Shown: positions 1,832 through 15,383 of the stretch, piece by piece
Layout of the letters: each line of letters begins with the position of its first letter
Numbering within the stretch: the first letter of the stretch is position 1
Origin: Clostridia bacterium
GTDB taxonomy: Bacteria > Bacillota > Clostridia > Oscillospirales > CAG-272
Length of the DNA: 47,888 nt
Assembly: GCA_017428635.1 (NCBI GenBank)
Contig: JAFRQK010000072.1
Span: 1-47,888, forward strand
Direction: 5' to 3'
Made by a program: the position numbers and the translations under genes
The notes under the pieces: model-generated
The model's input: the letters and a program-made list of their open reading frames with translations, nothing else
The model's database searches: none
Told to the model about the DNA's origin: nothing

Positions 1832-4555
1832 ATGCGTCTGACCGACTGGCATCTTATGGACAGGGAGACCGTAGAGGTGAATCTTATGACGGACCTCTAT
1901 CACGGACTCTCCGAAAAAGAAGCGAACAAGCGCAGAAGAAAGAACGGCGATAATAAAATATGGCAGGTCAAACGCGCTTCCGCAACGCGATATGCTCGCG
2001 ACGCAGCGTTTGATCTGACTACGGTTCTTCTTGTCCTGTGCGCCGTTTTTGCCGCGATCCTTGAGGGCAGCGTTATGGCGATCGCCGTTTGCGCGGTGCT
2101 CGTTATCGGCGTTGCGCTGCGTGTCGCGACTTATATTCGTGCGAAAAGGATCTTTGAGCAAATGGCGGACGAAGGGATCCCGAACGCCACCGTTATCCGT
2201 GACGGTACGACGCGCGTTATAAGAGGCGACGGTCTTGTCAGAGGCGATATTATCTCTCTCGGTGAGGGAGACGTCGTACCTTGCGACGTCAGGATCATTT
2301 CAGACGGCGAGGTCAGAGTAAGCGAAAAGGGGATTACGGAGAATAAATCGTCCGTTATAAAGCGCGATACGGTTATCGTTTCAGACGTAGACGGCGCGGA
2401 GATCCCGTGCGAATACCGTGTAAATATGCTGTTTGCCGGGTCAGTCATCTTGTCCGGAGCGTGCCGCGCGGTCGTTACGGCCTGTTCCGAAGATTCTTTG
2501 ATATGTATGAAAAAAGGCGGGATCGTCGTCCCGTCAGGCGAGTCTCTTCCCGCGATCGTTAAATTTGAAAAGTGGAGCGGCGTCGTAAACCTGTTTATGA
2601 TCGCGCTGATTCTTGTCGTTTCACTTATCTCTATTCCCGTACGGGGAACGGATAGGATCCCCGACGTCTTTTTCGGAATGCTTTCACTTGCCGCGGCGTC
2701 GATAAGTACGTATTTCGGCGCGGTTGGATATATAATCGTCGCGGTTCCTGTCCGCGAGGCGGCAAAAGCGGGTAAAAATTTAGGCAGAGCCGTCATAAAG
2801 GATTCCTCGTTCCTCGAGGATCTCGCTTTTACCGACAGGATCATCGTTGCGGACGTTTCGGCTTTTAAGAGCGGTGACGCCGAAATGTCCCTTTTCTGGC
2901 GCGGCGGCAGGTCATACCGTTCCGGAGAGGGAGAACCGGACGAATTGATCAGACTGCTTTTCGCAACGTCAAGTATGACGGACGACACTTCGTCTCTTTC
3001 CGACAGGTTTGACGAAAAAGCGGAAACAGGAAAAGTACTGCTTGAGAGAGCGTCAGTTCACGCTTCCGAAACGTACGGGCGAAAGATCGTACCTACGATA
3101 CGCGTCATGGACCGTACCGTCAGCCGTGAAGACGGATATCTCATAAATACGGTCGTTGCCCTCAGAGGCGACAGTGTGGAAGCCGTCGCATCGGGCAATA
3201 TACGCGCCATACTCTCAATGTGCGACAGATACATCGACGGAGGAGGGAGCGAGTTTCTCGGCGACGCTTTGAAAGACAAAATACTCGAAGAGGCGGACGC
3301 TGCAGCCGCGCGCGGGGAAAAAGTAATAGCCGTGGCGACAAGAAACTCTCCTTACACGTATATCAAACATGCGGGGATCCTGCACAGCCGTATGCGTTTT
3401 GAAGGTTTCGTGTCGTTTGAGGAACCTCTGTCTGAAAGGGCAAAACTCTATTCCTCGGCTCTTTCGGATCTCAACGTCTCCGTTTCGCTTCTCACTTCCG
3501 ATCCCGCTGAGGACGTTGACTATCTCAAAGCCAAATGCTTTTTCAAAAACGACGTTCCCGTTTTTACCTGTGAGGAGTTTCTGAGGCTCGACGATCTTCC
3601 GGACGGTCTCTACGCCGTTAAGGTCCCTGCTTACGGCGATCCCGAGATGAAGCGGACGGCGATCTCGGATATGAGATGCGCCGTCGTCGGAAAGATATCT
3701 AAAGGCGGCGAGTTGATAACCGTCGTTACAAAAGAAGCTCTCGACAGCCGAATGATGAACGGAACGACCGTAGGCGCGGCGGTTTCTCCGTCCGAAAGAC
3801 GGCCGATCCCTCAGACGCTGAAAAGGCGCAGCAAGATCACGGTATATCCGTCCGCAGCCGAAGGGAGCGGCGGATTCGCTGAAACTTCCAGGGCTTATCT
3901 CTCTTCCGTTCTTGCTCTCACAAATCTTTCTGACGCCCTGATTTACATCGTTTTTTCACAGTCCGCGAGGATCGTTGCGGCGCTTGTCGCCGTTTTCACC
4001 GGCGCGGGTCTTACAAATCCCGTCGGTATACTGGCGCTCGGCCTGCTGTTCGATTTTGCCGCCGTTTTAACTCTTGCTTTCAGGGAAGGAGTAAAACTCA
4101 CTTCCCGAAAGAGAGAAGGCGACGGGATATCGGTACCTAAGGCGTTATTCTGTTCCGCAGCGGGGATCGTTACGGGCGTGATCTGTTCTCTTGTTCCGCT
4201 GTCCGGTCTTATTATTCCGTCGGCAGACGCGGGGACTGCGTCCGCTTCCTTTATCTCAATGCTTCTCGTTCAATTTGCGACAGTAACGTGTCTGCTCACC
4301 TATTGGCGAAAAAAGAAGGGAAGACCTGCCAGAGCGTATTACCTCTACACGGTTCTTGTCGCTGCCGCGTGCGCCCTCACGCTTTTCGTACCCGCGGTCA
4401 GTTCTCTGTTCGGCGACGTCACGCCGCATCTTATTTCCGCAGTTCTTTCCGTTATCCCCGCGCTTCTTGTTCCCTTGATCCTTTGGGCGCTCGGCTCGGT
4501 ACTCGAAAAACGTACCGTTAAGCCTGACGGGAAAAACAGTAAAGTTGAAGAATAA
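1832..4555 (+). CDS. P-type ATPase-like membrane protein lacking catalytic motifs (pseudo-ATPase)
   Basis: A 907-residue protein with the overall plan of a P2-type cation ATPase. It has a cation-ATPase N-terminal domain (about 9-47, with GLSEKEANKRRRKNGDN), two early membrane segments, an actuator-like domain (about 115-220), two further membrane segments, a large cytoplasmic region, and C-terminal membrane segments. The catalytic signatures are not there. The TGES position reads ITEN (about 168-171). The DKTGT phosphorylation site reads DVSAF, with Asp341 kept. The PEGL turn reads PVRE, and no GDGxND hinge is seen. Transport by phosphoenzyme cycling is therefore unlikely. AGGA lies just upstream of the ATG. 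The frame is open throughout, so it is not a decaying pseudogene. The role is unknown; a scaffold or sensor is possible. Confidence 0.75.
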   Translation: MRLTDWHLMDRETVEVNLMTDLYHGLSEKEANKRRRKNGDNKIWQVKRASATRYARDAAFDLTTVLLVLCAVFAAILEGSVMAIAVCAVLVIGVALRVATYIRAKRIFEQMADEGIPNATVIRDGTTRVIRGDGLVRGDIISLGEGDVVPCDVRIISDGEVRVSEKGITENKSSVIKRDTVIVSDVDGAEIPCEYRVNMLFAGSVILSGACRAVVTACSEDSLICMKKGGIVVPSGESLPAIVKFEKWSGVVNLFMIALILVVSLISIPVRGTDRIPDVFFGMLSLAAASISTYFGAVGYIIVAVPVREAAKAGKNLGRAVIKDSSFLEDLAFTDRIIVADVSAFKSGDAEMSLFWRGGRSYRSGEGEPDELIRLLFATSSMTDDTSSLSDRFDEKAETGKVLLERASVHASETYGRKIVPTIRVMDRTVSREDGYLINTVVALRGDSVEAVASGNIRAILSMCDRYIDGGGSEFLGDALKDKILEEADAAAARGEKVIAVATRNSPYTYIKHAGILHSRMRFEGFVSFEEPLSERAKLYSSALSDLNVSVSLLTSDPAEDVDYLKAKCFFKNDVPVFTCEEFLRLDDLPDGLYAVKVPAYGDPEMKRTAISDMRCAVVGKISKGGELITVVTKEALDSRMMNGTTVGAAVSPSERRPIPQTLKRRSKITVYPSAAEGSGGFAETSRAYLSSVLALTNLSDALIYIVFSQSARIVAALVAVFTGAGLTNPVGILALGLLFDFAAVLTLAFREGVKLTSRKREGDGISVPKALFCSAAGIVTGVICSLVPLSGLIIPSADAGTASASFISMLLVQFATVTCLLTYWRKKKGRPARAYYLYTVLVAAACALTLFVPAVSSLFGDVTPHLISAVLSVIPALLVPLILWALGSVLEKRTVKPDGKNSKVEE

Positions 4556-4676: not shown

Positions 4677-5519
4677 ATGGATGACAATAATTGCACGCAC
4701 GACTGTTCAACGTGCGGCGCCGACTGTTCTTCGCGAGAGACTGCCGCGCCGGCAAAATTGCCGCTATCCGACGGTTCCCGCGTCAGCCGTGTTATCGGCG
4801 TAGTGAGCGGTAAAGGCGGCGTGGGGAAGTCCTTGATCACGTCCCTTTTATCCGTTGCGATGAAACGCAGAGAGTACGGTGTTGCGATTCTTGATGCGGA
4901 CGTTACCGGGCCTTCCGTCCCGAAAGCTTTCGGGATCAAAGGCGGTGTGGAATCAACCGGTGATCTGATACTCCCTCGTCGTACGACGACAGGGATCGAT
5001 ATGATCTCCGTCAACCTGCTTCTTCAGAATGAGACCGATCCGGTCGTATGGCGCGGTCCCGTGATCTCGGGTCTGATCCATCAGTTCTGGTCCGAAGTGT
5101 TCTGGGCCGACGTAGACTATATGTTTATCGATATGCCGCCCGGGACCGGCGACGTTCCCCTTACGGTTTTTCAAAGCCTGCCCGTCGACGGGATAATCGT
5201 AGTTTCAACTCCGCAGGATCTTGTATCGATGATCGTTGAAAAAGCGGTAAAGATGGCAAATCTGATGGACGTTCCCGTTCTCGGCCTTGTCGAGAATATG
5301 AGTTACGTTAAATGCCCCGACTGCGGACGTGAGATCCCGATATTCGGAGAATCACACGCCGAAGAGGTTTCAAAAAGATTAGGCGTTCCTCTTCTCGCCC
5401 GTCTTCCCGTCGATCCCGCTTTTGCATCTCTTTGTGACCGCGGAACGATCGAACTTTACGAGAACGACGAGGTCGAAAAGGTTGCCGACAAGATCGAGAC
5501 GATCCTGCCGCTCAATTAA
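4677..5519 (+). CDS. Mrp/NBP35-type Fe-S cluster carrier ATPase
   Basis: Cytosolic P-loop ATPase that binds and transfers [4Fe-4S] clusters to apoproteins. The 280 residues start with a ferredoxin-like cysteine cluster (Cys6, 10, 13, 17; CX3CX2CX3C) as in NBP35, rather than the MIP18-like domain of many bacterial Mrp proteins. Then come a deviant Walker A (SGKGGVGKS), switch regions with DADVTGPSVP and DMPPGTGDVP, and a C-terminal CPDC pair that usually holds the bridging cluster. It lies immediately upstream of a locus whose products need many Fe-S clusters, so a loading role there is a reasonable inference. The family call is firm; the client is not shown. Confidence 0.9.
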   Translation: MDDNNCTHDCSTCGADCSSRETAAPAKLPLSDGSRVSRVIGVVSGKGGVGKSLITSLLSVAMKRREYGVAILDADVTGPSVPKAFGIKGGVESTGDLILPRRTTTGIDMISVNLLLQNETDPVVWRGPVISGLIHQFWSEVFWADVDYMFIDMPPGTGDVPLTVFQSLPVDGIIVVSTPQDLVSMIVEKAVKMANLMDVPVLGLVENMSYVKCPDCGREIPIFGESHAEEVSKRLGVPLLARLPVDPAFASLCDRGTIELYENDEVEKVADKIETILPLN

Positions 5520-5550: not shown

Positions 5551-6042
5551 ATGAAAAAGCAGATGACTTCAGTTCCTTTCCGTGAAACAGAGGAACAGCG
5601 CGCCGCACTTGAGGCGGTCATCGAAAAGCACCGCGGTGAAGGCGGGGCTCTGATGCCCACTCTTCAGGAGGCGCAGGACATTTACGGTTATCTTCCCACG
5701 GAGGTACAGATCCGTATCGCGCACGGTCTCGGGATGCCTGTTTCCGAGGTGTTCGGCGTCGCTACGTTTTATTCTCAGTTCCTTCTTAATCCGAAGGGAG
5801 AGCATCCGATCAGCGTCTGCCTCGGAACCGCATGCTACGTCAAGGGTTCCGGAGCCGTTATGGAAAAACTCGAATCCCTTCTCGGTATTAAGAGCGGCGG
5901 CATCACCGAAGATCTCAAGTTCTCTCTTGACGCTACGAGATGCATCGGCGCCTGCGGTCTCGCTCCCGTTATGATGATCGGAGAAGACGTCTACGGAAGG
6001 CTTGATCCCAATCAGATCAAGGGAATACTCGAGAAGTATTGA
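5551..6042 (+). CDS. hydC: NuoE-like [2Fe-2S] subunit of bifurcating hydrogenase (HydC/HndA)
   Basis: Small electron-transfer subunit of a multi-subunit [FeFe]-hydrogenase, homologous to NuoE of complex I. The start at 5551 is chosen because a perfect AGGAGG lies 7 bases upstream; the frame is open further 5' but only inside mrp. The 163 residues contain a helical N-terminal half followed by a thioredoxin-like fold with the four cluster ligands Cys90, Cys95, Cys131 and Cys135 (CLGTAC and CIGAC). It is separated from hydB and hydA by about 4 kb of putative signalling genes, but it probably assembles with them, passing electrons to or from the flavin subunit. Confidence 0.9.
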   Translation: MKKQMTSVPFRETEEQRAALEAVIEKHRGEGGALMPTLQEAQDIYGYLPTEVQIRIAHGLGMPVSEVFGVATFYSQFLLNPKGEHPISVCLGTACYVKGSGAVMEKLESLLGIKSGGITEDLKFSLDATRCIGACGLAPVMMIGEDVYGRLDPNQIKGILEKY

Positions 6043-6052
6043 GAGGGACCGT

Positions 6053-6409
6053 ATGAAAATACGAGAACTGAAGGAGCTTTTGTCCGCCGAACTGATGACG
6101 GACGATACCGCGCTCCTTGACGGCGAAGTATTCAACGCCTGCTGCAGTGATATGATGAGCGACGTCCTTGCTTTCGTTAAGGATCAGGGTGTATTGCTCA
6201 CCGGTCTCGTCAACGAGCAGGTCATAAGGACCGCCAGCATGATGGACATGGTCTGTATCGTCTTCGTCCGCGACAAAACGCCCACTCCCGATATGGTTCG
6301 CCTTGCCGAGGAATGCGATATAGTCGTGATGAAATCTGCATATCGCGCTTATGAGGCTTGCGGGAAGTTATATACTTCGGGTCTCGTCGCGCGCGGACCT
6401 CATAACTGA
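6053..6409 (+). CDS. DRTGG domain protein (first copy)
   Basis: A 118-residue cytosolic protein made essentially of one DRTGG domain, a small regulatory fold also found next to CBS domains and in phosphotransacetylase-type proteins. The region around GVLLTGLVNEQVIRTA matches the family core. The start at 6053 has GAGGG upstream and lies 10 bases after hydC. Stand-alone DRTGG genes are often found beside clostridial [FeFe]-hydrogenase genes, but I know of no proven biochemical role. The second copy lies at 8205. I infer a ligand-binding or adaptor role in regulating the hydrogenase. Confidence 0.75.
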   Translation: MKIRELKELLSAELMTDDTALLDGEVFNACCSDMMSDVLAFVKDQGVLLTGLVNEQVIRTASMMDMVCIVFVRDKTPTPDMVRLAEECDIVVMKSAYRAYEACGKLYTSGLVARGPHN

Positions 6410-6412
6410 GCC

Positions 6413-6838
6413 ATGGCGGAGAACGTAGTTTTTCACTTTGACGTTGACGGCGAGGACTTTTCTTCCGCCGGCGGCGCGTCCGTAACGGTCAAGAAAAAAC
6501 TGAGACAACTCGGTATCGCTCCTGAATACATAAGACGCGTAGCGATCGCCATGTACGAGGGTGAGATCAATATGGTCATCCACGCCAACGGCGGATCAGC
6601 GGACGTGATCGTATCCGACGACGAGATCAAGATCGTTCTCACCGACACTGGGCCCGGCATTCCCGACGTTTCTCTTGCGATGCAGGAGGGATATTCCACC
6701 GCGCGTGACAACATCAGATCGCTCGGGTTCGGAGCCGGGATGGGTCTTCCGAATATGAAAAAATACACCGACACGATGGAGATCGACACGGAACTCGGAC
6801 GGGGAACCACTATCACGATGACTGTGAAGATCGCCTGA
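6413..6838 (+). CDS. Anti-sigma-factor-like GHKL ATPase (RsbW/SpoIIAB type)
   Basis: A 141-residue single-domain ATPase of the GHKL superfamily. The N box is EGEINMVIHA, the G1 box DTGPGIPD and the G2 box GFGAGMGLPNM; the C-terminal strand (GTTITMTV) completes the fold. This is the layout of serine kinases such as RsbW and SpoIIAB, which bind sigma factors or anti-sigma antagonists. No sigma factor or STAS antagonist gene is nearby, so the partner is unknown. The ATG lies 3 bases after the preceding stop without a clear ribosome binding site, which suggests translational coupling to the DRTGG gene. Confidence 0.8.
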   Translation: MAENVVFHFDVDGEDFSSAGGASVTVKKKLRQLGIAPEYIRRVAIAMYEGEINMVIHANGGSADVIVSDDEIKIVLTDTGPGIPDVSLAMQEGYSTARDNIRSLGFGAGMGLPNMKKYTDTMEIDTELGRGTTITMTVKIA

Positions 6839-6862
6839 TCCCGACGGGAAAGGAGGCGGAAA

Positions 6863-8212
6863 GTGCAGGAATATAAGCATTCTGTTTCTCTCGACGTAAA
6901 AAAATGTAAAGGCTGCACCACCTGCCTTAAAAGATGTCCCACCGAGGCTATAAGGATCAGGGACGGGCACGCAGTGATAAACTCAAAACGCTGTATCGAT
7001 TGCGGAGAGTGCATCAAGGTCTGCCCGCACAAAGCCAAGCGCGCAACGCACGACGGTCTTGAGACCCTTTCCGATTTCAAGGTCAAAGTTGCGCTGCCGG
7101 CTCCCGCTCTCTACGGACAGTTTGACAACATGGAGAGCATCGATTATATCATCGAAGGACTTTACCGTCTCGGTTTCGATTACGTTTTTGAAGTCGCGGG
7201 AGCCGCGGAGATGGTTTCCGCATACACGCGAATCTATCTCGGCAAACCCGGCGTCAGAAAACCCGTTATCAGTTCGGCTTGCCCGGTCATCACAAGGATG
7301 ATCAACATTAATTTCCCGTATCTCTCCGACAACATCATGCCGATCCTCCCTCCAATAGAAGTCGCCGCGGCTGTAGCGCGCGACCGTATGACGGAGATGA
7401 GACCGGACGTCTCGCCGGAGGATATCGGTATCTATTTCATTTCTCCCTGCACGGCAAAGGTAAGTTACGTCAAAAACGGTTTTGCCGGTTCAAAGAACAA
7501 CGTCGACCGCGTTCTGTCGATGAGGGATCTGTATTTCCGTCTTATCGACGTTATGGACGGGATAGAAGTGCCTGAGCACGCCGCTTCGTCCGGAATGATC
7601 GGGATCGGCTGGGCTTCCACCGGCGGAGAGTCTTCTGCTGTATTCAATGATAAATACCTTGCAGCCGACGGAATTGAAAATTGCATCAAGGTCTTAGAGC
7701 AGATCGAGAATGACGATTTCACCGACCTTGATTTTATCGAACTCAACGCCTGCAACGGCGGTTGCGTAGGCGGAGCGATGACGGTCGCGAATCCTTATAT
7801 CGCACAGGCGCGTCTCCAGACGCTCAAGAGGTATCTTCCGGTATCTCCGAACAGGCCGCGCGAGGTAGACGTTCCGGATCGTTTCTTCGTTGATGAAAAC
7901 GTCAAATTCGATCCCGGTATGCTTCTCTCGGACGACAGGAACGAGGCTATGCGGATGATGTCTGAGATCGAATCGATCGCTTCCGAACTTCCGGGCCTTG
8001 ACTGCGGATCCTGCGGCGCTCCCACCTGTATGGCTTTTGCCGAGGATATCGTTAAGAATGAGACCAACGCGGACGAATGCACCGTCATTATGAGAGAGAT
8101 GTTCCACGATTACCTTGAACGGCACAAGGACACGACGCTTGCGGATGCGTTCCGCGATTATCGCAGCCGTTCCGCAAAGGAAAAGGACGGTTCTCAGGAA
8201 CCCCATGCTTAA
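6863..8212 (+). CDS. Sensory-type [FeFe]-hydrogenase-like protein with N- and C-terminal Fe-S domains
   Basis: A 449-residue protein starting at GTG, with AAAGGAGG 5 bases upstream. The N-terminus has two [4Fe-4S] ferredoxin motifs (Cys15-25 and Cys44-54). The middle is an iron-hydrogenase large-subunit domain that keeps all four H-cluster cubane cysteines: Cys140 (SSACP), Cys196 (SPCTAK), Cys297 and Cys301 (NACNGGC). Residues of the proton relay are replaced: Ala139 stands for the usual relay Cys, Ser stands for Met in SPC, and the Glu of L2 is missing. The C-terminus carries a further four-Cys Fe-S domain (Cys381, 384, 389, 406). This resembles group C/D hydrogenases such as HydS, which are thought to sense rather than turn over H2. 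It has no PAS or phosphatase output domain. Confidence 0.85.
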   Translation: MQEYKHSVSLDVKKCKGCTTCLKRCPTEAIRIRDGHAVINSKRCIDCGECIKVCPHKAKRATHDGLETLSDFKVKVALPAPALYGQFDNMESIDYIIEGLYRLGFDYVFEVAGAAEMVSAYTRIYLGKPGVRKPVISSACPVITRMININFPYLSDNIMPILPPIEVAAAVARDRMTEMRPDVSPEDIGIYFISPCTAKVSYVKNGFAGSKNNVDRVLSMRDLYFRLIDVMDGIEVPEHAASSGMIGIGWASTGGESSAVFNDKYLAADGIENCIKVLEQIENDDFTDLDFIELNACNGGCVGGAMTVANPYIAQARLQTLKRYLPVSPNRPREVDVPDRFFVDENVKFDPGMLLSDDRNEAMRMMSEIESIASELPGLDCGSCGAPTCMAFAEDIVKNETNADECTVIMREMFHDYLERHKDTTLADAFRDYRSRSAKEKDGSQEPHA

Positions 8213-8546
8213 AATGAAACTTTCAGATATTATCAATTCTCTCTCTCTGACCGTCGTCGTCGGAGACGTCGAACGGGATCTCGAGGGAGTTTATGCGGGT
8301 GATTTTCTCTCCCGCGCTATGAGCCGGGTCGAAGCGGGCGATCTTTGGATCACTATTATGAACAACGTTAACGTGATCGCCGTGGCGTCGCTTACCGACG
8401 CCGCCGCGGTTCTTCTCGCAGAGGACGTTTCTCTTATGTCCGACGCGCTTGAAGCGGCCCGTGAAAAGGACGTTACGGTTCTTTCTTCAGGCTTGTCCGT
8501 TTACGAGCTTTGCGTCGCATTGGGCAAATTCGGGACGGCATCATGA
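8205..8546 (+). CDS. DRTGG domain protein (second copy)
   Basis: A 113-residue DRTGG-type protein (core KLSDIINSLSLTVVVGDVE). Two in-frame ATGs are possible. The one at 8205 sits 5 bases after AGGA and overlaps the preceding stop by 8 bases; the other is at 8214. It differs clearly from the first copy in sequence, so this is a diverged pair rather than a recent duplication. Its stop overlaps the next start (ATGA), indicating coupled translation with the PHP phosphoesterase. Function unknown; context points to regulation of the hydrogenase. Confidence 0.7.
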   Translation: MLKMKLSDIINSLSLTVVVGDVERDLEGVYAGDFLSRAMSRVEAGDLWITIMNNVNVIAVASLTDAAAVLLAEDVSLMSDALEAAREKDVTVLSSGLSVYELCVALGKFGTAS

Positions 8547-9277
8547 GCGAGTATCGTTACGATCTTCACGTTCACTCTTGTCTGTCTCCGTGCGCCGACG
8601 ACGATATGACCCCTGCAAATATCGCGGGTATGGCATCGCTCAACGGCATTTCACTCTTGGCTCTTACCGATCATAATTCAGCAAAAAACTGTCCTGCTTT
8701 TTTCGAACATTGTAAAAGATACGGGATCGTCCCCATCCCGGGGATGGAACTTACCACTTCCGAGGACGTTCACGTTATTTGTTTGTTCCCGACGCTTGAG
8801 TCCGCTCTCGAGATGGACCGGATCGCGGGAGAAAAACTGATCAAAGTGAAAAACCGGCCCGAGATCTTCGGCAGGCAGATCGTCGTAGACGAAAACGACG
8901 ATCCGAAATGCGAGCTCGAAGATCTGATCATCAACGCGACGTCCCTCGATCTTAACGCAGCATACGAAACCGTCCTGTCTCTCGGTGGCGTCGCTTATCC
9001 CGCGCATATCGACCGCCAGGCAAACGGTATCGTTTCGATTCTCGGAACGTTTCCCGATTCACCTCGTTTTACGGCATACGAACTGAACGACGGTGACAGC
9101 GCCGAAGGATATGTACACCGTTTCTCGGTCCTTTCCGGGCTCAAAAAGATCGTATCATCGGACGCTCACCATCTTTGGAGTATTTCTGACGGATCCGAGA
9201 TGATTGAACTGTGCGACGATCCTTATTCTTCAGATCTGGTGCGCCGCCGACTGATCGATTATCTTCTCGGGAGGTGA
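8543..9277 (+). CDS. PHP-domain metallophosphoesterase
   Basis: A 244-residue PHP-family hydrolase, related to TrpH/YciV-type phosphoesterases that cleave phosphate esters or nucleotides with a multinuclear metal site. Metal ligands visible are HVHS near the start, LTDHNS, GMELTT, AYPAHID and SSDAHH near the end. The start at 8543 overlaps the previous stop by 4 bases (ATGA). The substrate cannot be read from the sequence. Its position between a DRTGG protein and a GHKL ATPase suggests that it acts on a signalling phosphate or nucleotide, which is inference. Confidence 0.8.
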   Translation: MSEYRYDLHVHSCLSPCADDDMTPANIAGMASLNGISLLALTDHNSAKNCPAFFEHCKRYGIVPIPGMELTTSEDVHVICLFPTLESALEMDRIAGEKLIKVKNRPEIFGRQIVVDENDDPKCELEDLIINATSLDLNAAYETVLSLGGVAYPAHIDRQANGIVSILGTFPDSPRFTAYELNDGDSAEGYVHRFSVLSGLKKIVSSDAHHLWSISDGSEMIELCDDPYSSDLVRRRLIDYLLGR

Positions 9278-9284
9278 TGACGGC

Positions 9285-9839
9285 ATGGAGGAATTCTCGC
9301 TTTACGTTCTCGATATCGTCATGAACTCCGTCAGGGCAGGCGCTGAAAATATCGACGTTTCGCTTGACGACCGCGGCGGTCTTCTCACTTTCAAGGTCAC
9401 CGACGACGGCTGCGGGATGACTGAGGAACAGCTTGAACGGCTTTCAGATCCGTTTTTCACCACGCGTAAGACGCGCGGAGTCGGACTCGGCGTTCCGTTT
9501 CTCAAAATGCTCGCCGAACAGACCGGCGGAGACGTTAAAGTCTCTTCCGTTGCCGCATCGGAATCTCCGGAGAGCCACGGAACCACGCTTGTCGCAACGT
9601 TTCATTCCAACCATATAGATTTCATTCCCATGGGTGATATAAAGGGCACTTTCGTCACTCTCATTCAGGGAAACCCGGACGTTAACTTTACGTTTGTTCA
9701 CGAAACGGACGGCGGGGAAGTGCGATTGTCCTGCGCCGAACTCAAGTCGGTCCTCGGCGACGGCATCCCGCTCTCGAGTCCCGAAGTACTCGCATGGATA
9801 CGCGGATACCTCGCGGAAGCTTATGAAGAAATAAAATAA
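9285..9839 (+). CDS. GHKL ATPase domain protein (histidine-kinase-like, no dimerisation domain)
   Basis: A 184-residue protein whose first 110 residues form a HATPase domain: N box around DIVMNSVRAGA, G1 DDGCGM, and G2 in RGVGLGVPFLKMLA, followed by GTTLVATF. There is no HisKA domain, receiver or membrane segment, so it is not a standard sensor kinase. The last 70 or so residues match no domain I recognise. GGAGG lies upstream of the ATG. It is the second GHKL ATPase of the locus and is more kinase-like than the RsbW-type one at 6413. It may phosphorylate, or simply bind, a partner in the same operon. Confidence 0.75.
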   Translation: MEEFSLYVLDIVMNSVRAGAENIDVSLDDRGGLLTFKVTDDGCGMTEEQLERLSDPFFTTRKTRGVGLGVPFLKMLAEQTGGDVKVSSVAASESPESHGTTLVATFHSNHIDFIPMGDIKGTFVTLIQGNPDVNFTFVHETDGGEVRLSCAELKSVLGDGIPLSSPEVLAWIRGYLAEAYEEIK

Positions 9840-9884
9840 TGATTTATTATTTTAAATAAACACTTAAGGAAGGAAAGCAGCAGT

Positions 9885-10259
9885 ATGAAATCAATCGAGG
9901 AATTGATGGCAATCAAGGAAAAGATGCAGAACAAAGTTTCGCTGAGAAACAGCGCGGGCGACGACGTCAGAGTCGTCGTCGGTATGGCGACCTGCGGTAT
10001 CGCCGCCGGAGCGCGTCCCGTTCTCAACGCGTTCGTTGAGGGCGTCAGCGAAGCGGGTCTCTCAGACCGCGTCATGGTCACGCAAACCGGATGCATCGGT
10101 ATCTGCCAGTACGAGCCGGTCGTCGAGATCTATGAAAAGGACAAGGAAAAAGTCACTTACGTCAAGATGAACGCCGAGAAGGCGAAGGAAGTCATCGAGC
10201 GTCACCTCAAAGGCGGCGAACCGATCTCTGAATACACCATCGGCGCGGCGACTAAATAA
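9885..10259 (+). CDS. Thioredoxin-like [2Fe-2S] ferredoxin (HndB-like hydrogenase subunit)
   Basis: A 124-residue protein of the thioredoxin-like ferredoxin family, matching the HndB subunit of NADP-reducing [FeFe]-hydrogenases. Three cysteines stand in the cluster region: Cys37 (ATCGIAAGA), Cys70 and Cys74 (TGCIGIC). The fourth position of the NuoE-like pattern is Ala, which as far as I recall is usual in this family. AAGGAAGG precedes the ATG. The C-terminus (GGEPISEYTI) is typical. It lies 18 bases before hydB, so the end of the locus keeps an hndB-hndC-hndD order, while the hndA-like gene is displaced to the front. Confidence 0.85.
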   Translation: MKSIEELMAIKEKMQNKVSLRNSAGDDVRVVVGMATCGIAAGARPVLNAFVEGVSEAGLSDRVMVTQTGCIGICQYEPVVEIYEKDKEKVTYVKMNAEKAKEVIERHLKGGEPISEYTIGAATK

Positions 10260-10277
10260 CAAGGAGGACAGGTCGAC

Positions 10278-12068
10278 ATGTTTCGTATTCATGCACTGGT
10301 TTGCGGAGGAACGGGATGTACTTCCTCCGGCAGCGTCAAGGTCAGAGAAGCCCTTGAGGCTGAGATCAAAGCGAAAGGTCTCGAGGAAGAAGTCAAAATA
10401 GTCCAGACGGGCTGTTTCGGACTCTGCGCTCTCGGCCCCGTAATGATCATTTATCCCGAGGGTACTTTCTACAGCATGGTCAAACCCGAGGACGTTCCCG
10501 AGATCGTCGAGGAGCATTTCCTCAAAGGCCGTCCGGTCCAGCGCCTCATTTACAATGAAAAGAAGGAAGAGACGCCTCACGCCTCGTCCCTCAACGAGAC
10601 TGCATTTTATAAAAAGCAGAAGAGAGTCGCTCTTCGCAACTGCGGCGTCATCAATCCCGAGAATATCGACGAGTACATCGCGATGGACGGCTATTTCGCC
10701 ATTGCAAAAGTGCTCAAAGAAATGACTCCGGACGACGTCATAGACGTAATGAACAGATCCGGTCTCCGCGGACGCGGCGGCGGCGGATTCCCCACCGGCA
10801 GAAAATGGTCTTTCGCCAAGGCGAGCGTCTCCGATAAGAAATACGTCGTCTGCAACGCCGACGAGGGCGACCCCGGCGCGTTCATGGACCGTTCCGTCCT
10901 TGAGGGCGACCCGCACGCAGTTCTTGAAGCCATGGCTATCGCAGGATACGCCATCGGAGCCGACGAGGGCTGGATCTACGTCAGAGCCGAGTACCCGATC
11001 GCAGTCCGCCGTCTCAACATTGCCATCGAACAGGCGAGAGAATACGGTCTGCTCGGAAAGGATATTCTCGGCACAGGATTCAACTTTGATATCCACATCC
11101 GTCTCGGCGCAGGCGCGTTCGTCTGCGGCGAGGAAACCGCTCTTCTGACATCTATCGAGGGCAACAGAGGCGAGCCGAGACCCCGTCCTCCGTTCCCGGC
11201 GGTCAAGGGTCTGTTCGGCAAACCCACGATCATCAATAACGTCGAGACTTACGCCAACATTCCTCCGATCATCCTGAAAGGTCCGGAATGGTTCGCTTCG
11301 ATGGGAACCGAGACTTCCAAGGGCACGAAGGTCTTCGCGCTCGGCGGTAAGATCACCAATACCGGACTCGTCGAGATCCCGATGGGCACGACGCTTCGCG
11401 AGATCGTTGAGGAGATCGGCGGGGGCGTTCCGAACGGTAAGAAGTTCAAAGCTGCTCAGACCGGTGGTCCTTCAGGCGGCTGTATCCCCGCTTCTCTCAT
11501 CGACACCCCGATCGACTACGACAACCTCATCAAGATCGGTTCGATGATGGGTTCCGGCGGACTTATAGTCATGGACGAGGACACCTGCATGGTCGACCTT
11601 GCCAAGTTCTTCCTCGAATTTACCGTTGACGAATCCTGCGGTAAATGCGCGCCCTGCCGTATCGGTATGGTAAGGATGCTTGAGATCCTCAAAAAGATCA
11701 CGTCCGGCAACGGCGAGATGGAAGACCTCGATAAGCTTGAGGAGCTCGGCAATTACATCAAGAGCGCGTCTCTCTGCGGACTCGGTCAGACTGCTCCAAA
11801 CCCCGTTCTCTCAACACTTCGCTATTTCCGCGAAGAATACGAGGCGCACATAAAAGAAAAGAGATGCCCTGCCGGCGTTTGCAAGAGCCTTCTCGCATAC
11901 AAGATCGATCCCGAGAAGTGCAAAAAGTGCCACATGTGCGCTAAGGTCTGTCCGGCAGGCGCTATTCAGGGCGAGGTCAAGGAGATCCACTCTATCGACC
12001 CGACTAAGTGCGTGAAGTGCGGCGCTTGCTACGACACCTGCAAGTTCGGCGCGATCATCAAGAAATAA
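10278..12068 (+). CDS. hydB: NuoF-like flavin subunit of electron-bifurcating hydrogenase (HydB/HndC)
   Basis: The NAD(P)H-binding flavoprotein subunit, 596 residues. Domains in order: an N-terminal thioredoxin-like [2Fe-2S] domain (Cys9, 14, 46, 50); the complex-I 51-kDa core with the FMN/NADH glycine loop (GRGGGGFPTGRKW) and the NADH-site motif (EGNRGEPRPRPP); the [4Fe-4S] site ESCGKCAPCR with a distal Cys in SLCGLG; and two C-terminal [4Fe-4S] ferredoxin motifs (CKKCHMCAKVC and CVKCGACYDTC). In trimeric HydABC enzymes this subunit holds the FMN at which electrons from NADH and ferredoxin are joined or split. Length and domain order fit the family fully. Confidence 0.95.
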   Translation: MFRIHALVCGGTGCTSSGSVKVREALEAEIKAKGLEEEVKIVQTGCFGLCALGPVMIIYPEGTFYSMVKPEDVPEIVEEHFLKGRPVQRLIYNEKKEETPHASSLNETAFYKKQKRVALRNCGVINPENIDEYIAMDGYFAIAKVLKEMTPDDVIDVMNRSGLRGRGGGGFPTGRKWSFAKASVSDKKYVVCNADEGDPGAFMDRSVLEGDPHAVLEAMAIAGYAIGADEGWIYVRAEYPIAVRRLNIAIEQAREYGLLGKDILGTGFNFDIHIRLGAGAFVCGEETALLTSIEGNRGEPRPRPPFPAVKGLFGKPTIINNVETYANIPPIILKGPEWFASMGTETSKGTKVFALGGKITNTGLVEIPMGTTLREIVEEIGGGVPNGKKFKAAQTGGPSGGCIPASLIDTPIDYDNLIKIGSMMGSGGLIVMDEDTCMVDLAKFFLEFTVDESCGKCAPCRIGMVRMLEILKKITSGNGEMEDLDKLEELGNYIKSASLCGLGQTAPNPVLSTLRYFREEYEAHIKEKRCPAGVCKSLLAYKIDPEKCKKCHMCAKVCPAGAIQGEVKEIHSIDPTKCVKCGACYDTCKFGAIIKK

Positions 12069-12082
12069 GAGGGGTAACAGAT

Positions 12083-13819
12083 ATGGATATGATCAAAGTT
12101 AAAATCAATAACGTCGAGTACTCCGTTCCCGCCGGTATCACCGTCCTCGAAGCGGCGAAATACGCGGGTATCGAGATACCCACGCTTTGCTATCTCAAAG
12201 ATATTAATGAGATCGGCGCCTGCCGTCTTTGCCTTGTTGAGGTCAAAGGCGCGAGAGGTCTTGTCACCTCCTGCGTTTACCCCGTGAACGACGGGATGGA
12301 GATATTCACCAACACAGAGCGCGTCCGTCAGGCGAGAAAGATGAACATTCAGCTCGTTCTTTCCTCCCACAGAAAGGACTGCCTCTCCTGCATCCGTTCC
12401 ACGACTTGCGAACTTCAGCGTCTTGCAAACGAGTTCGGCGTGGACGAACACTATTTCAACTCCGACGAGAGGAAAGCCGACATCGACGAATCCTCCCCCT
12501 CCATTATCCGCGACAACAGTAAATGTATCCTTTGCCGCAGATGCGTTGCCGTCTGCAATAAGGTCCAGTCTATCGGCGCCATCGGCGCGCAGAACAGAGG
12601 TTACGACACGTCTGTCGGAAGCCAGTTTGAACTTCCTCTTGCCGATACCACATGCATCAACTGCGGTCAGTGTATCGTTGCTTGCCCGGTCGGAGCCCTT
12701 TACGAAAAGGACGACACCGCGAGGATCAACGCCGCTATCGCCGATCCCACCAAACACGTCGCTATCTGCTGCGCTCCTTCCGTTCGCGCTCAGATCGGCG
12801 AGTGCTTCGGCCTTGAGCCCGGCACCGACGCCGAGGGCAAGATGGTCGCCGCTCTCAAGCGTCTCGGATTCGACGGCGTTTACGACATGAATTTCACCGC
12901 CGACCTTACGATCATGGAAGAGGCAAACGAGTTCATTGAGAGACTTCAGAACGGCGGAAAACTTCCGCTCATCACGTCCTGCTCACCTGGCTGGATCAAG
13001 TTCTGCGAGCATTATTTCCCGGATATGACCGAGAATCTCTCGACCTGCAAGTCTCCTCAGCAGATGTTCGGCGCGGTTTATAAGACCTATTTCGCGGAAA
13101 AGATGGGTATCGACCCGAAAGATATCGTATTCGTGTCCGCTATCCCGTGTACTGCGAAGAAGTTTGAGGTCACCCGTGACGATCAGGACGCCGACGGCAT
13201 CCCCGGCGTCGATATCGCGGTCACGACTCGCGAACTCGGAAGAATGATCAACGCAGCGGGTATCGATTTCAAGAACCTCGCTGACGAGAAATTCGACACT
13301 CCGATCGATATCGGTTCCGGCGCGGGCGTCATATTCGGCGCAACCGGAGGCGTTATGGAAGCGGCTCTCAGGACCGCCGCTGAAGTCGTTCTCGGAAAAC
13401 CGCTTGAAAAACTCGACTTTGACGAAGTCCGCGGTACCGAGGGCATCAAGTTCGCAACTTACAAACTCGGCGATCTTGAACTCAACGTTGCCGTCGCTTC
13501 CGGCACCGGAAACGCGAGAAAACTTCTTAACGGCGTCAAGGACGGCACTTACAACGTGCAGTTCATCGAGATCATGGCTTGCCCGGGCGGATGCGTCAAC
13601 GGCGGCGGTCAGCCGACCCAGCCGTTCTCGGTCCGTTCCAACGTCGATCTTCGCGCCGTCAGAGCGAGCGTTCTTTACAACGCCGACAAAAAGATGGATC
13701 TCAGAAAATCTCACGAGAACTCCATCATCAAGAAGATCTACGAGGAGTATCTTGAAAAGCCCGGCAGTCACCGCGCTCACGAACTTCTCCATACTTCTTA
13801 CGTCAAACGCGGACAGTAA
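12083..13819 (+). CDS. hydA: Catalytic [FeFe]-hydrogenase subunit (HydA/HndD)
   Basis: The H2-forming/oxidising subunit, 578 residues. It has an N-terminal [2Fe-2S] domain (Cys36, 47, 50, 64), the His-Cys3 cluster (His96, Cys100, 103, 109), two [4Fe-4S] motifs (from Cys148 and Cys191), then the H-cluster domain. The H-cluster motifs are L1 TSCSPGW (298-304), L2 IPCTAKKFE (Cys356) and L3 MACPGGCVNGGG (Cys500, Cys504). L1 has Ser301 where single-subunit enzymes have a second Cys. The start at 12083 lies 14 bases after hydB and follows GAGGGG; the open frame upstream lies inside hydB. Maturases HydE, HydF and HydG are not in the window. A terminator follows. Confidence 0.95.
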   Translation: MDMIKVKINNVEYSVPAGITVLEAAKYAGIEIPTLCYLKDINEIGACRLCLVEVKGARGLVTSCVYPVNDGMEIFTNTERVRQARKMNIQLVLSSHRKDCLSCIRSTTCELQRLANEFGVDEHYFNSDERKADIDESSPSIIRDNSKCILCRRCVAVCNKVQSIGAIGAQNRGYDTSVGSQFELPLADTTCINCGQCIVACPVGALYEKDDTARINAAIADPTKHVAICCAPSVRAQIGECFGLEPGTDAEGKMVAALKRLGFDGVYDMNFTADLTIMEEANEFIERLQNGGKLPLITSCSPGWIKFCEHYFPDMTENLSTCKSPQQMFGAVYKTYFAEKMGIDPKDIVFVSAIPCTAKKFEVTRDDQDADGIPGVDIAVTTRELGRMINAAGIDFKNLADEKFDTPIDIGSGAGVIFGATGGVMEAALRTAAEVVLGKPLEKLDFDEVRGTEGIKFATYKLGDLELNVAVASGTGNARKLLNGVKDGTYNVQFIEIMACPGGCVNGGGQPTQPFSVRSNVDLRAVRASVLYNADKKMDLRKSHENSIIKKIYEEYLEKPGSHRAHELLHTSYVKRGQ

Positions 13820-13830
13820 ACGTTCCAACG

Positions 13831-13868
13831 CGCCCCTTCCCGCACAGTCGGAAAGGGGCGTTTTACTG
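13831..13868 (+). terminator. Rho-independent terminator after hydA
   Basis: A GC-rich hairpin (left arm 13831-13840, right arm 13850-13860, one bulged A) is followed by TTTT and, soon after, a longer T run. It begins 12 bases after the hydA stop and closes the hydrogenase locus. Confidence 0.8.
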
Positions 13869-13899
13869 TTTTTTTGCTCGAAATACGGGGGCGTAATTA

Positions 13900-13928
13900 T
13901 TTACAAGTATTAAATATTATGGTATAAT
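13900..13928 (+). promoter_or_regulatory. Sigma-A type promoter of the envelope operon
   Basis: TTTACA (13900-13905) and TATAAT (13923-13928) are 17 bases apart, within an AT-rich stretch just after the hydA terminator and about 50 bases before the MBOAT start. No further terminator is seen until lexA, so it could drive the whole run to 23015. Confidence 0.75.
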
Positions 13929-13976
13929 ATTAAGAAATATTTCAAAGGTCAATCTGTTGATATCGGAGCAGGATAA

Positions 13977-15383
13977 ATGGTCTTTTCTACGCCGTTCTTT
14001 ATATTCTTTTTTCTGGCTCTGCTTTTCCCGTGCTACTATCTGTTCAAATCAACTGGTGCGAGAAAAGCGGTCCTTGTTGCGTTCTCTCTGATATTCTATG
14101 CTTTCGGCGAACCGGTACTGATCGCTCTGATGCTCTTTATGATCGCGGTCAACTACCTCGGCGGGCTGCTCGTCGCTTCCTGCCGCACTCTTCGCGGTGC
14201 GCGCGTATGGCTTATCGTATCAGTCGTGATCGATCTCGGTATCCTCTGCGTTTTCAAATATTCGGGGCTCTTTACGGAAACCCTCAATTCAGTCTTTCAT
14301 GTATCTATTCCCGTGCCGACCGTCAGAATGCCGATCGGTATCAGTTTCTATACGTTCCAGGCTATGTCATACGTCATTGACGTATACAGAGGAGACGTTC
14401 GTCCGCAGCGCAAGATCTTCAATCTTCTTCTATACGTTTCGTTCTTCGCCCAGTTGATCGCCGGTCCCATAGTGAGATACAAGGACATTGAAAGTCAGCT
14501 TGACGACAGAAGGGTACGCCTTTACGATCTCAACGACGGTTTCTTCCGTTTTTCAGTCGGATTGGCGAAAAAGATAGTGATAGCCGACCAGTGCGCCGTC
14601 GCGATCAACGCCCTGTACGGTATCTCAAACGTAACTTTCCTCGCGCGATGGGGCGGAGCGTTCTTCTACGCCTTGCAGATCTATTTCGACTTTTCCGGTT
14701 ATTCCGATATGGCGATCGGCCTCGGGAGAATGTTCGGTTTCCACTTCAACGAGAACTTCCGCCATCCTTACGCCTCGTCCTCTGCGACGGAGTTCTGGCG
14801 CAGGTGGCATATCTCCCTTGGAACTTTTTTCAGGGATTACGTCTATATTCCCCTCGGCGGAAACAGACGCCACCAGATCCGCAATATTATCGTTGTTTGG
14901 CTTCTTACGGGATTCTGGCACGGCGCATCGTGGAATTTCCTCCTTTGGGGGGCGTTCTACGCGGTACTTCTTATACTCGAAAAGAACTTCCTTCTCGAGA
15001 GCTTCGAACGAATGCCGCGCGTCCTATCGTTCATTTTGTCAAAACTGTATTTTATATTCATAACAGTATTCGGTTTCGCGATCTTCTATTTTACCAAAGA
15101 TCTGTTTCCTTCGCTCGGATACCTGTTCGGCATAGGGGTATCATCGTTCACGGACGTTCCCACTATGTCTATCCTCTCGCAAAACGTTTTCCTTCTGTTC
15201 GGAGGGATCGTTCTCGCGCTTCCTGCCGTTTCGTCGTTCTTCAAATGGTTCGGACAGAAAGTCGGCGTCTCTTACGGCGTATACAGGTATTCGCGTCTGA
15301 TCGTTTCCGTTGCGCTTCTGTTCCTTGCAACGGTCCGTATGGCGGGCAACAGTTTCAGCCCGTTCCTCTACTGGGCGTTCTGA
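13977..15383 (+). CDS. MBOAT-family membrane O-acyltransferase (AlgI/DltB-like)
   Basis: A 468-residue polytopic membrane protein that would pass an acyl group, usually acetyl, across the membrane for modification of a cell-surface polymer. It has about ten hydrophobic segments, the conserved cytoplasmic re-entrant motif around EFWRRWHISLGTFFRDY (272-288), and the catalytic His315 in FWHGASWN. The ORF ends 12 bases before the gene for a DHHW-type partner, the usual AlgI-AlgJ/X pairing in polysaccharide acetylation. The acceptor polymer is not shown by the sequence. The usual dlt partner genes are absent, which makes D-alanylation of teichoic acid unlikely. Confidence 0.9.
   Translation: MVFSTPFFIFFFLALLFPCYYLFKSTGARKAVLVAFSLIFYAFGEPVLIALMLFMIAVNYLGGLLVASCRTLRGARVWLIVSVVIDLGILCVFKYSGLFTETLNSVFHVSIPVPTVRMPIGISFYTFQAMSYVIDVYRGDVRPQRKIFNLLLYVSFFAQLIAGPIVRYKDIESQLDDRRVRLYDLNDGFFRFSVGLAKKIVIADQCAVAINALYGISNVTFLARWGGAFFYALQIYFDFSGYSDMAIGLGRMFGFHFNENFRHPYASSSATEFWRRWHISLGTFFRDYVYIPLGGNRRHQIRNIIVVWLLTGFWHGASWNFLLWGAFYAVLLILEKNFLLESFERMPRVLSFILSKLYFIFITVFGFAIFYFTKDLFPSLGYLFGIGVSSFTDVPTMSILSQNVFLLFGGIVLALPAVSSFFKWFGQKVGVSYGVYRYSRLIVSVALLFLATVRMAGNSFSPFLYWAF

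Follow-up and report, generated by a model that had tools for sequence, protein, structure and literature searches.

Gene content of the locus

The window analysed here is a stretch of 47,888 nucleotides from a Clostridia bacterium (contig JAFRQK010000072.1), within which ten co-directional genes, all on the + strand, run from hydC to hydA (positions 5551–13819). Six of them (DRTGG1, RsbWl, HydS, DRTGG2, PHP and GHKL2), lying among the subunit genes of a predicted bifurcating hydrogenase, constitute the cassette with which this report is concerned. An earlier note on this DNA had read the set as a relay sensing H2 or redox state; all ten genes that it listed were recovered at their positions and on the + strand, with their names backed by Pfam/NCBIfam, as follows:

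5551–6042, + strand: hydC, NuoE-type [2Fe-2S] subunit of the bifurcating hydrogenase (PF01257, 168 bits)
6053–6409, + strand: DRTGG1, one DRTGG domain (PF07085, 22.7 bits, below the cut-off; fold model)
6413–6838, + strand: RsbWl, SpoIIAB/RsbW-like GHKL ATPase (HATPase_c above the Pfam cut-off)
6863–8212, + strand: HydS, group D (M2e) [FeFe]-hydrogenase-like protein (Fe_hyd_lg_C, FeS and Fer4 above the Pfam cut-offs; GTG start)
8214–8546, + strand: DRTGG2, one DRTGG domain (PF07085, 25.0 bits, below the cut-off)
8543–9277, + strand: PHP, PHP-domain phosphoesterase (PHP above the Pfam cut-off)
9285–9839, + strand: GHKL2, HATPase protein without HisKA and with an extra C-terminal region (HATPase_c above the Pfam cut-off)
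9885–10259, + strand: HndB-like thioredoxin-fold ferredoxin (Pfam; alignment)
10278–12068, + strand: hydB, NuoF-type FMN/NADH subunit (NCBIfam/Pfam; Complex1_51K)
12083–13819, + strand: hydA, catalytic subunit (NCBIfam NADH-dependent group A6, 871 bits against a cut-off of 765)

The spacings from hydC to hydA are, in order, 10, 3, 24 and 1 bases, an overlap of 4, and 7, 45, 18 and 14 bases. The ATG at 8214 was taken as the start of DRTGG2; the family and alignment work used 8208–8546, so that DRTGG2 residues are numbered from 8208. Both DRTGG proteins score slightly below the PF07085 cut-off of 25.2 bits. The output enzyme comprises HydA, HydB and HydC with NADH/FMN and H-cluster modules (NCBIfam A6, Complex1_51K and 2Fe-2S domains) and is, by these domains, of the electron-bifurcating type. 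Two Fe_hyd_lg_C proteins, HydS and HydA, were found in the genome, which can probably mature H-clusters, since both HydF and HydG are present.

Five published features support the assignment of HydS to group D (published sources were available in part, and what is said of them refers to those parts). Its plan of two N-terminal [4Fe-4S] motifs, an H-cluster domain and a C-terminal Cx2Cx4Cx16C motif is that published for group D, in which this C-terminal motif is accompanied by Ser or Thr in place of M353 (PMC8163306). The motif reads C381-x2-C384-x4-C389-x16-C406 in the window, and its four cysteines are kept in 137 of 138 aligned rows (four of the rows being duplicates), the exception, L007, being broken. 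A Pfam scan of the window HydS detected no PAS, HisKA or MCP domain. The M353 position is occupied by S194 (Ser or Thr in 134 of the 138 rows, Ala in four) and that of the group A relay cysteine (C299) by A139 (Cys in 0/138). The relay glutamates E252 and E289 of the group D protein TamHydS (PMC10407848), matched by motif with an offset of +4, correspond to E256 and E293, which are kept in 128 of 129 distinct rows outside family f39 and in all 134 rows, respectively. The earlier placing of the H-cluster protein as group C/D-like is thus consistent with group D on plan, missing PAS, missing C299, Ser/Thr for M353 and both relay glutamates.

Among the partner proteins, D33, S36 and T50 of DRTGG1 occur in 98–100% of 65 aligned sequences and D32, S35, T49 and N55 of DRTGG2 in 100% of 70, a D-x-x-S motif and a Thr being nearly invariant and common to both. 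The predicted model of DRTGG1 (pLDDT 86.7) matches the solved DRTGG protein 2ioj (TM score 0.79), as well as the DRTGG domains of CBS-pyrophosphatases and the N-domains of HPr kinases. The letters of the DR and TGG motifs are not kept in the alignment of either protein, and in a hidden Markov model alignment with 2ioj (one comparison, across a low-confidence stretch) other residues fill the D and S columns in 2ioj; the D-x-x-S residues may be special to the cassette.

By alignment, the catalytic motifs of RsbWl, PHP and GHKL2 are intact. In RsbWl, E49 and N53 (ExxxN box), D78 and the lid glycines G105, G107, G109 and G111 are found in 100% of 73 aligned sequences, and the ExxxN box, D-x-G-P-G motif and lid glycines as a whole are kept at 99–100%. 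It matches the solved structures of SpoIIAB (1til, E-value 1.4e-11) and RsbW (6m36, E-value 8e-4), so that of the earlier label 'RsbW-like' the GHKL family stands while SpoIIAB proves the nearer relative. Nine positions of PHP (H9, H11, D43, H44, E69, H77, H155, D207 and H209), which we take to be the expected set of metal ligands, are kept in 95–100% of 63 sequences. GHKL2 has N14, D40, G42, G44, G67 and G69 in 100% of 66 sequences, and D112, P115 and G117 are invariant in its extra C-terminal region. The possibility that it is a complete histidine kinase was rejected, as Pfam finds an HATPase domain without HisKA. Histidine-kinase ATPase domains nevertheless rank first among its solved relatives by sequence, in keeping with the earlier description of a kinase-like protein lacking HisKA, whereas a fold search with the whole model places MutL/PMS2, topoisomerase VI and Hsp90-type structures nearest and ZraS at rank 20. 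The HndB-like protein has three invariant cysteines (C37, C70 and C74; 63 aligned sequences), one fewer than the four of the usual [2Fe-2S] thioredoxin-type ferredoxin, and travels with GHKL2, being fused to it in L101 and retained with it beside Rnf in L086.

Conservation, fusions and neighbouring enzymes

A first scan yielded 14 related loci. In a sample of 398 genomes of the phylum, HydS was matched in 160 (E <= 1e-60), and 120 regions were fetched from among the matches listed, with the weakest excluded; the loci are therefore not a random sample. In all, 134 loci were annotated with profiles built from the same loci, gene calls being stop-to-stop frames scored by the profiles, and counts are based on the 132 with a full-scoring HydS, L013 (cut by a contig end) and L143 (stop within HydS) having been dropped. 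The 132 loci represent 49 family groups, seven loci having no group. RsbWl is present in 126 of them, DRTGG2 in 125, GHKL2 in 119 (120/131 under a laxer score), HydC in 115, PHP in 114, DRTGG1 in 111, HydB in 110 and HndB in 107. Absence or disorder of the signalling genes in relatives would, by the earlier note, have counted against its reading, and they proved neither absent nor unordered: all six occur in 103 of the 132 loci, in much the same order, and these complete sets come from 39 family groups. A chance cluster was ruled out, the order being retained across the 132 loci.

In 126/132 loci the first recognised gene 5' of HydS is RsbWl. Two of the other six are cut by a contig end (L136 and L164), and four (L074, L106, L150 and L169) have a reduced set, HydS-DRTGG2-HndB-HydC-HydB-HydA, without RsbWl, DRTGG1, PHP and GHKL2; three of these four genomes (G018, G191 and G289) also carry a fuller copy among the fetched loci. 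The place of HydC varies: 69 loci have it between PHP and GHKL2, 17 between HndB and HydB and seven between DRTGG2 and GHKL2, 12 carry it upstream of HydS and 10 on the opposite strand, and it was not seen in 17. The hydC of the window, 5' of the cassette, is thus a local variant (12/132, near relatives of the window). In L048 and L050 the block is split divergently into HydC-GHKL2-HndB-HydB-HydA and DRTGG1-RsbWl-HydS-DRTGG2-PHP, which suggests two functional arms, and six further divergent loci (L093, L103 and L157–L160) have a PHP-GHKL2 fusion in the half that holds HydS. A smaller unit, RsbWl-HydS, adjoins OmpR-type and/or CheW genes in L060, L088, L100, L125 and L126, and is accompanied by DRTGG1 and CheW in L056 and L167. 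Following RsbWl-HydS and the OmpR-type regulator, L060 also encodes (6337–8250) an H-cluster protein with a methyl-accepting chemotaxis domain (Pfam); L100 has the same layout, with CheW and a long H-cluster protein.

Single open frames join neighbouring genes at 21 loci, namely DRTGG1-RsbWl (10), PHP-GHKL2 (six), HydS-DRTGG2 (two, L069 and L070), RsbWl-HydS (two) and GHKL2-HndB (one, L101), four of these kinds recurring in more than one genome. On a HydS tree (FastTree, 134 rows, with many long branches) the first four kinds correspond to 2+1+1+1 changes, i.e. at least 5 events, to which the one GHKL2-HndB fusion is added. Taken together, the joined frames link members into the chains DRTGG1-RsbWl-HydS-DRTGG2 and PHP-GHKL2-HndB. 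In every case the genes joined are next to each other, and a fusion of this kind arises readily; it is usually tolerated, however, only where the products are partners. The fusions are the strongest evidence for contact among the products, pointing to proximity and probable contact, and they favour the earlier claim that the H-cluster protein is tied to the signalling genes, the RsbWl-HydS frames apparently linking the two directly. They also point to RsbWl as the likely first partner of HydS, followed by DRTGG1 and DRTGG2.

Output labels were given to 112 of the 134 rows, 22 remaining without a label. HydA-type hydrogenase accounts for 83, formate dehydrogenase (Fdh) for 12, CheW or two-component genes without an enzyme for seven, Rex/RseC-type genes without an adjacent hydrogenase for four and Rnf for two, while none was seen in four. 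The six labels require 9 changes on the HydS tree and the Fdh label alone 4, and on this sequence evidence the enzyme next to the module is exchanged between lineages; a hydrogenase output, as proposed earlier, applies to most rows but not to those with Fdh, with Rnf or with none seen. The Fdh loci are L084, L085, L093, L103–L105, L130, L144 and L157–L160. A truncated HydA was considered for these 12 loci and rejected in favour of a formate dehydrogenase with an in-frame TGA, as in 12/12 the frame ends in CARL, meets the TGA stop and is then open for 541–544 residues from H; two of the 12 were read over their whole length. The proteins have HydA-like N-terminal iron-sulfur domains and then a domain of the molybdopterin type, for which L084 and L130 were scanned with Pfam up to the stop, and in L093, L103 and L157–L160 an extra frame of 312–318 aa resembling the HydA N-terminus precedes Fdh. 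Automatic annotation probably splits such enzymes. Formate dehydrogenases have already been listed among HydABC-family enzymes (PMC9304861). Pfam confirmed RnfC in L082, RnfD in L086, Rex in L058 and RseC in L080. A Rex gene is present in 30/132 loci, and frames near the Rex/RseC group look Nfn-like and cytochrome-like by eye. HydA appears as two frames in L155. Just 5' of the cassette in L069, positions 12772–15081 encode an H-cluster protein in fusion with PAS, HisKA and HATPase domains (group C type), together with an NtrC-like regulator; this locus would thus hold two kinds of putative sensory hydrogenase, and L070 looks alike.

Other neighbours in the window may be noted briefly. A gene named from its sequence as an Mrp/Nbp35-type P-loop ATPase (4677–5519, + strand) ends 31 bases 5' of hydC; an Mrp homologue also adjoins hydC in L001, L002, L004, L005, L007, L010 and L014, with another Mrp match in L083, and the gene is a lineage-specific neighbour outside the core cassette. 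The promoter and terminator scan returned 9 against 5.9 expected and 18 against 11.5 expected. A promoter-like site at 13900–13928 (11/12 matches), between hydA and a membrane protein gene at 13977, is consistent with an operon end at hydA. Upstream, positions 1832–4555 encode a 907-aa protein with a P-type-ATPase-like N-terminus, in which DVSAFKS apparently stands where DKTGT, presumably the usual phosphorylation motif of these ATPases, would be expected; it is possibly a degenerate, non-pumping relative.

HydS in family f39

Fe_hyd_lg_C proteins were found in eight of the 20 f39 genomes searched. Five of these (G173, G223, G028, G295 and G379) have a single such protein, of HydS type, and in none of the five was HydF or HydG found over cut-off (G028 and G295 give a weaker HydG match of about 200 bits); HydG was over cut-off in all three f39 genomes with high-scoring catalytic-type proteins (G247, G108 and G403). 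The whole six-gene cassette is present without a hydrogenase in four of the five HydS-only genomes (L076, L095, L161 and L162), the region of G379 having been covered in part. In 5/5, HydS has Gln in place of the P2-motif lysine, a residue that we take to contact the diiron site in CpI, and Gln in place of E256, while all cluster cysteines are retained. Outside f39 the lysine is kept in 128 of 129 distinct rows (exception L088), as is E256 (exception L086).

On the simplest reading of these sequences, HydS of f39 still carries its iron-sulfur clusters but no longer performs H2 chemistry, and the cassette remains in use. Since f39 retains the cassette despite the lost HydS residues and with no HydF or HydG found, what is sensed is probably redox state, H2 being one of the inputs. 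This favours the redox part of the earlier proposal, and H2 sensing is probably not the invariant function. If this is true, f39 would serve as a natural control without H2 chemistry.

A proposed redox signalling module, its rivals and known systems

We consider it somewhat better than even (a probability of roughly 0.55) that DRTGG1, RsbWl, HydS, DRTGG2, PHP and GHKL2 make up a redox signalling module built around HydS, with RsbWl and DRTGG in direct contact. The module is probably portable and usually accompanies an enzyme that couples the ferredoxin pool to that of NAD(P)H, in the window the bifurcating HydABC. Its best-supported part is a proposed complex of HydS with RsbWl and DRTGG2, in which RsbWl would also touch DRTGG1. 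The redox state of the HydS clusters would be set by ferredoxin, and by H2 if the H-cluster is complete, and would alter the hold of HydS on RsbWl; RsbWl would then bind or phosphorylate a DRTGG partner, as SpoIIAB does its STAS partner, with the invariant Ser of D-x-x-S as candidate site, and PHP would reverse this action. A second arm, PHP-GHKL2-HndB, would lead to the enzyme, its GHKL2/HndB part, which stays with the output enzyme in the divergent L048 and L050, passing the state on. Gating of RsbWl by HydS and reversal by PHP are proposed on the strength of the likeness to SpoIIAB, and by the same analogy phosphorylation of a DRTGG protein by RsbWl is conceivable, though we think it rather unlikely. 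Slightly less doubtful, and offered tentatively, is a wider view of the cassette as a general low-potential redox signalling device that anaerobes shift from one ferredoxin/NAD(P)H enzyme to another (hydrogenase, formate dehydrogenase, Rnf), in which a hydrogenase-derived sensor would respond mainly to Fe-S redox state, having come off H2 in one lineage, and a SpoIIAB-type kinase would act on DRTGG; we know of no such pairing of kinase and substrate. The earlier relay reading is supported in part, by the conserved set, the intact motifs and the fusions; H2 sensing is probably not invariant, and the output is not always a hydrogenase.

Several observations weigh against a module of this kind. 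DRTGG1 is missing in 19/130 loci with enough flank, PHP in 18/132 and RsbWl in 4/130, and no single one of the three is therefore essential everywhere. The loci come from one phylum and were found by HydS searches, so that the sample consists of HydS-bearing genomes. The fusions say nothing on phosphorylation, and the GHKL2-HndB fusion, seen in one genome, could be an assembly error. The DRTGG1 model has a DRTGG/HprK-N fold, not the STAS fold of the known partner of SpoIIAB. Furthermore, 47 of the 160 HydS genomes, 42 of them outside f39, gave no HydG match at E <= 1e-90; 39 of the 42 have a further Fe_hyd_lg_C protein and three have HydS alone (G104, G154 and G356). In G104 and G154 (L130 and L154) HydS is the sole Fe_hyd_lg_C protein found and no HydG was found, and yet both residues of H2 chemistry are kept. 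HydG absence was thus rejected as proof of lost H2 chemistry, and the f39 argument rests on the combination of features.

Four other explanations were weighed. RsbWl might be an anti-sigma factor that HydS releases or engages, freeing a sigma factor and altering transcription, with DRTGG1 substituting for an anti-anti-sigma factor. SpoIIAB is indeed the nearest solved structure to RsbWl, Rex occurs in 30/132 loci, and OmpR-type genes adjoin RsbWl-HydS in L060, L088, L125 and L126 and lie past CheW in L100; however, the set remains associated with enzyme genes and, by way of GHKL2-HndB, with a ferredoxin-like protein, and no sigma factor or STAS protein was noticed among the neighbour sequences inspected, although no dedicated search for them was made, which leaves this explanation improbable. 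A little less probable still is a set of assembly or repair chaperones, in which GHKL2, the DRTGG proteins as adaptors, and HndB would serve to load or protect the adjacent iron-sulfur enzyme (HydABC, Fdh or Rnf). The MutL/Hsp90-like fold of GHKL2, the GHKL2-HndB fusion and the Mrp-type gene in front of hydC in the window lineage would suit such a role, but it leaves unexplained a HydS with a near-invariant H-cluster site, the RsbWl-HydS pair beside CheW/OmpR genes and the f39 cassettes with no enzyme seen nearby.

The loss of the DR and TGG letters from both DRTGG proteins, the lack of any nucleotide synthetase noticed in the set and the missing PHP in 18/132 loci make nucleotide signalling quite unlikely, in which DRTGG would bind an adenine dinucleotide, PHP would hydrolyse it or a related nucleotide, and HydS and the ATPases would set its level. 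This idea draws on the best solved relatives of PHP, which by name act on nucleic acids, and on the stated importance of DRTGG for binding diadenosine polyphosphates in CBS-pyrophosphatases (PMC7226116). The least probable explanation is that HydS is a slow catalytic or electron-entry subunit of the bifurcating enzyme and not a sensor: TamHydS does turn over H2, and less actively when its relay glutamates are changed (PMC10407848), but HydS also occurs next to formate dehydrogenase or Rnf, or with no enzyme seen nearby, and fusions join it to an ATPase and to a DRTGG domain. The redox signalling module is preferred over these four, and would, if true, be a control point, widespread among anaerobes, for the metabolism of H2 and formate (HydS is matched in 160/398 genomes) that is testable with a few small soluble proteins.

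Parts of this proposal have precedents. Group D was classed as sensory in 2012 from nearby kinases and bifurcating hydrogenases (PMC3561251), a group D gene with a bifurcating trimer and kinases was reported for C. thermocellum (PMC3492117), and both papers mention kinases, phosphatases and PAS sensors in general terms. Locus numbers in Table 6 of PMC3561251 put the group D gene five away from the trimer in 6/6 organisms compared, if the numbering is consecutive, an offset consistent with the gene orders of the relatives surveyed. The ATPase neighbour of TamHydS was noted in 2020, and how group D proteins would pass their signal on was stated to be an open question (PMC8163306). A table of predicted Rex sites in a paper on Rex includes a PHP gene, with no link drawn to the cassette. 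A literature search on group D, DRTGG, PHP and HydS context did not find the full cassette described, most subscription papers lying outside the search. The sensory proposal and the kinase neighbour are thus already published, while the fusions, the exchanged outputs, the probable loss of H2 chemistry, the DRTGG pair, PHP and GHKL2 were not met in the literature searched.

The closest known counterpart is TamHydS, which shares with the window HydS its domain plan, relay glutamates and Ser/Thr for M353 (PMC8163306, PMC10407848, PMC13104023) and whose gene likewise lies with those for a bifurcating trimer and a kinase-like ATPase; it differs in that the available text (PMC8163306) mentions just the ATPase and a neighbour of the 'AraC family'. 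Group C hydrogenases, which are proposed H2 sensors often found beside bifurcating hydrogenases (PMC11406978, PMC5037454, PMC8163306) and linked to PAS, kinase, MCP and phosphatase domains, have a related H-domain and C-terminal cluster motif, whereas the window HydS lacks PAS, HisKA and MCP and is accompanied instead by a separate ATPase and DRTGG proteins. In the bifurcating NiFe-HydABCSL of A. mobile, hisK and hydD, which may match GHKL2 and HndB, adjoin a HydABC-family enzyme and are reported to lie outside the holoenzyme, but a group D HydS, DRTGG and PHP are not described beside it in the part of that paper available (PMC9304861). Finally, the arrangement recalls partner switching by SpoIIAB/RsbW, RsbWl having the same ATPase family and catalytic box and a small adjacent partner, DRTGG1, to which it is fused in 10 loci. 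It differs in that no sigma factor or SpoIIE-type phosphatase was noticed in the set, no search having been aimed at them, and in that the partner, by Pfam and by predicted fold, is a DRTGG and not a STAS protein.

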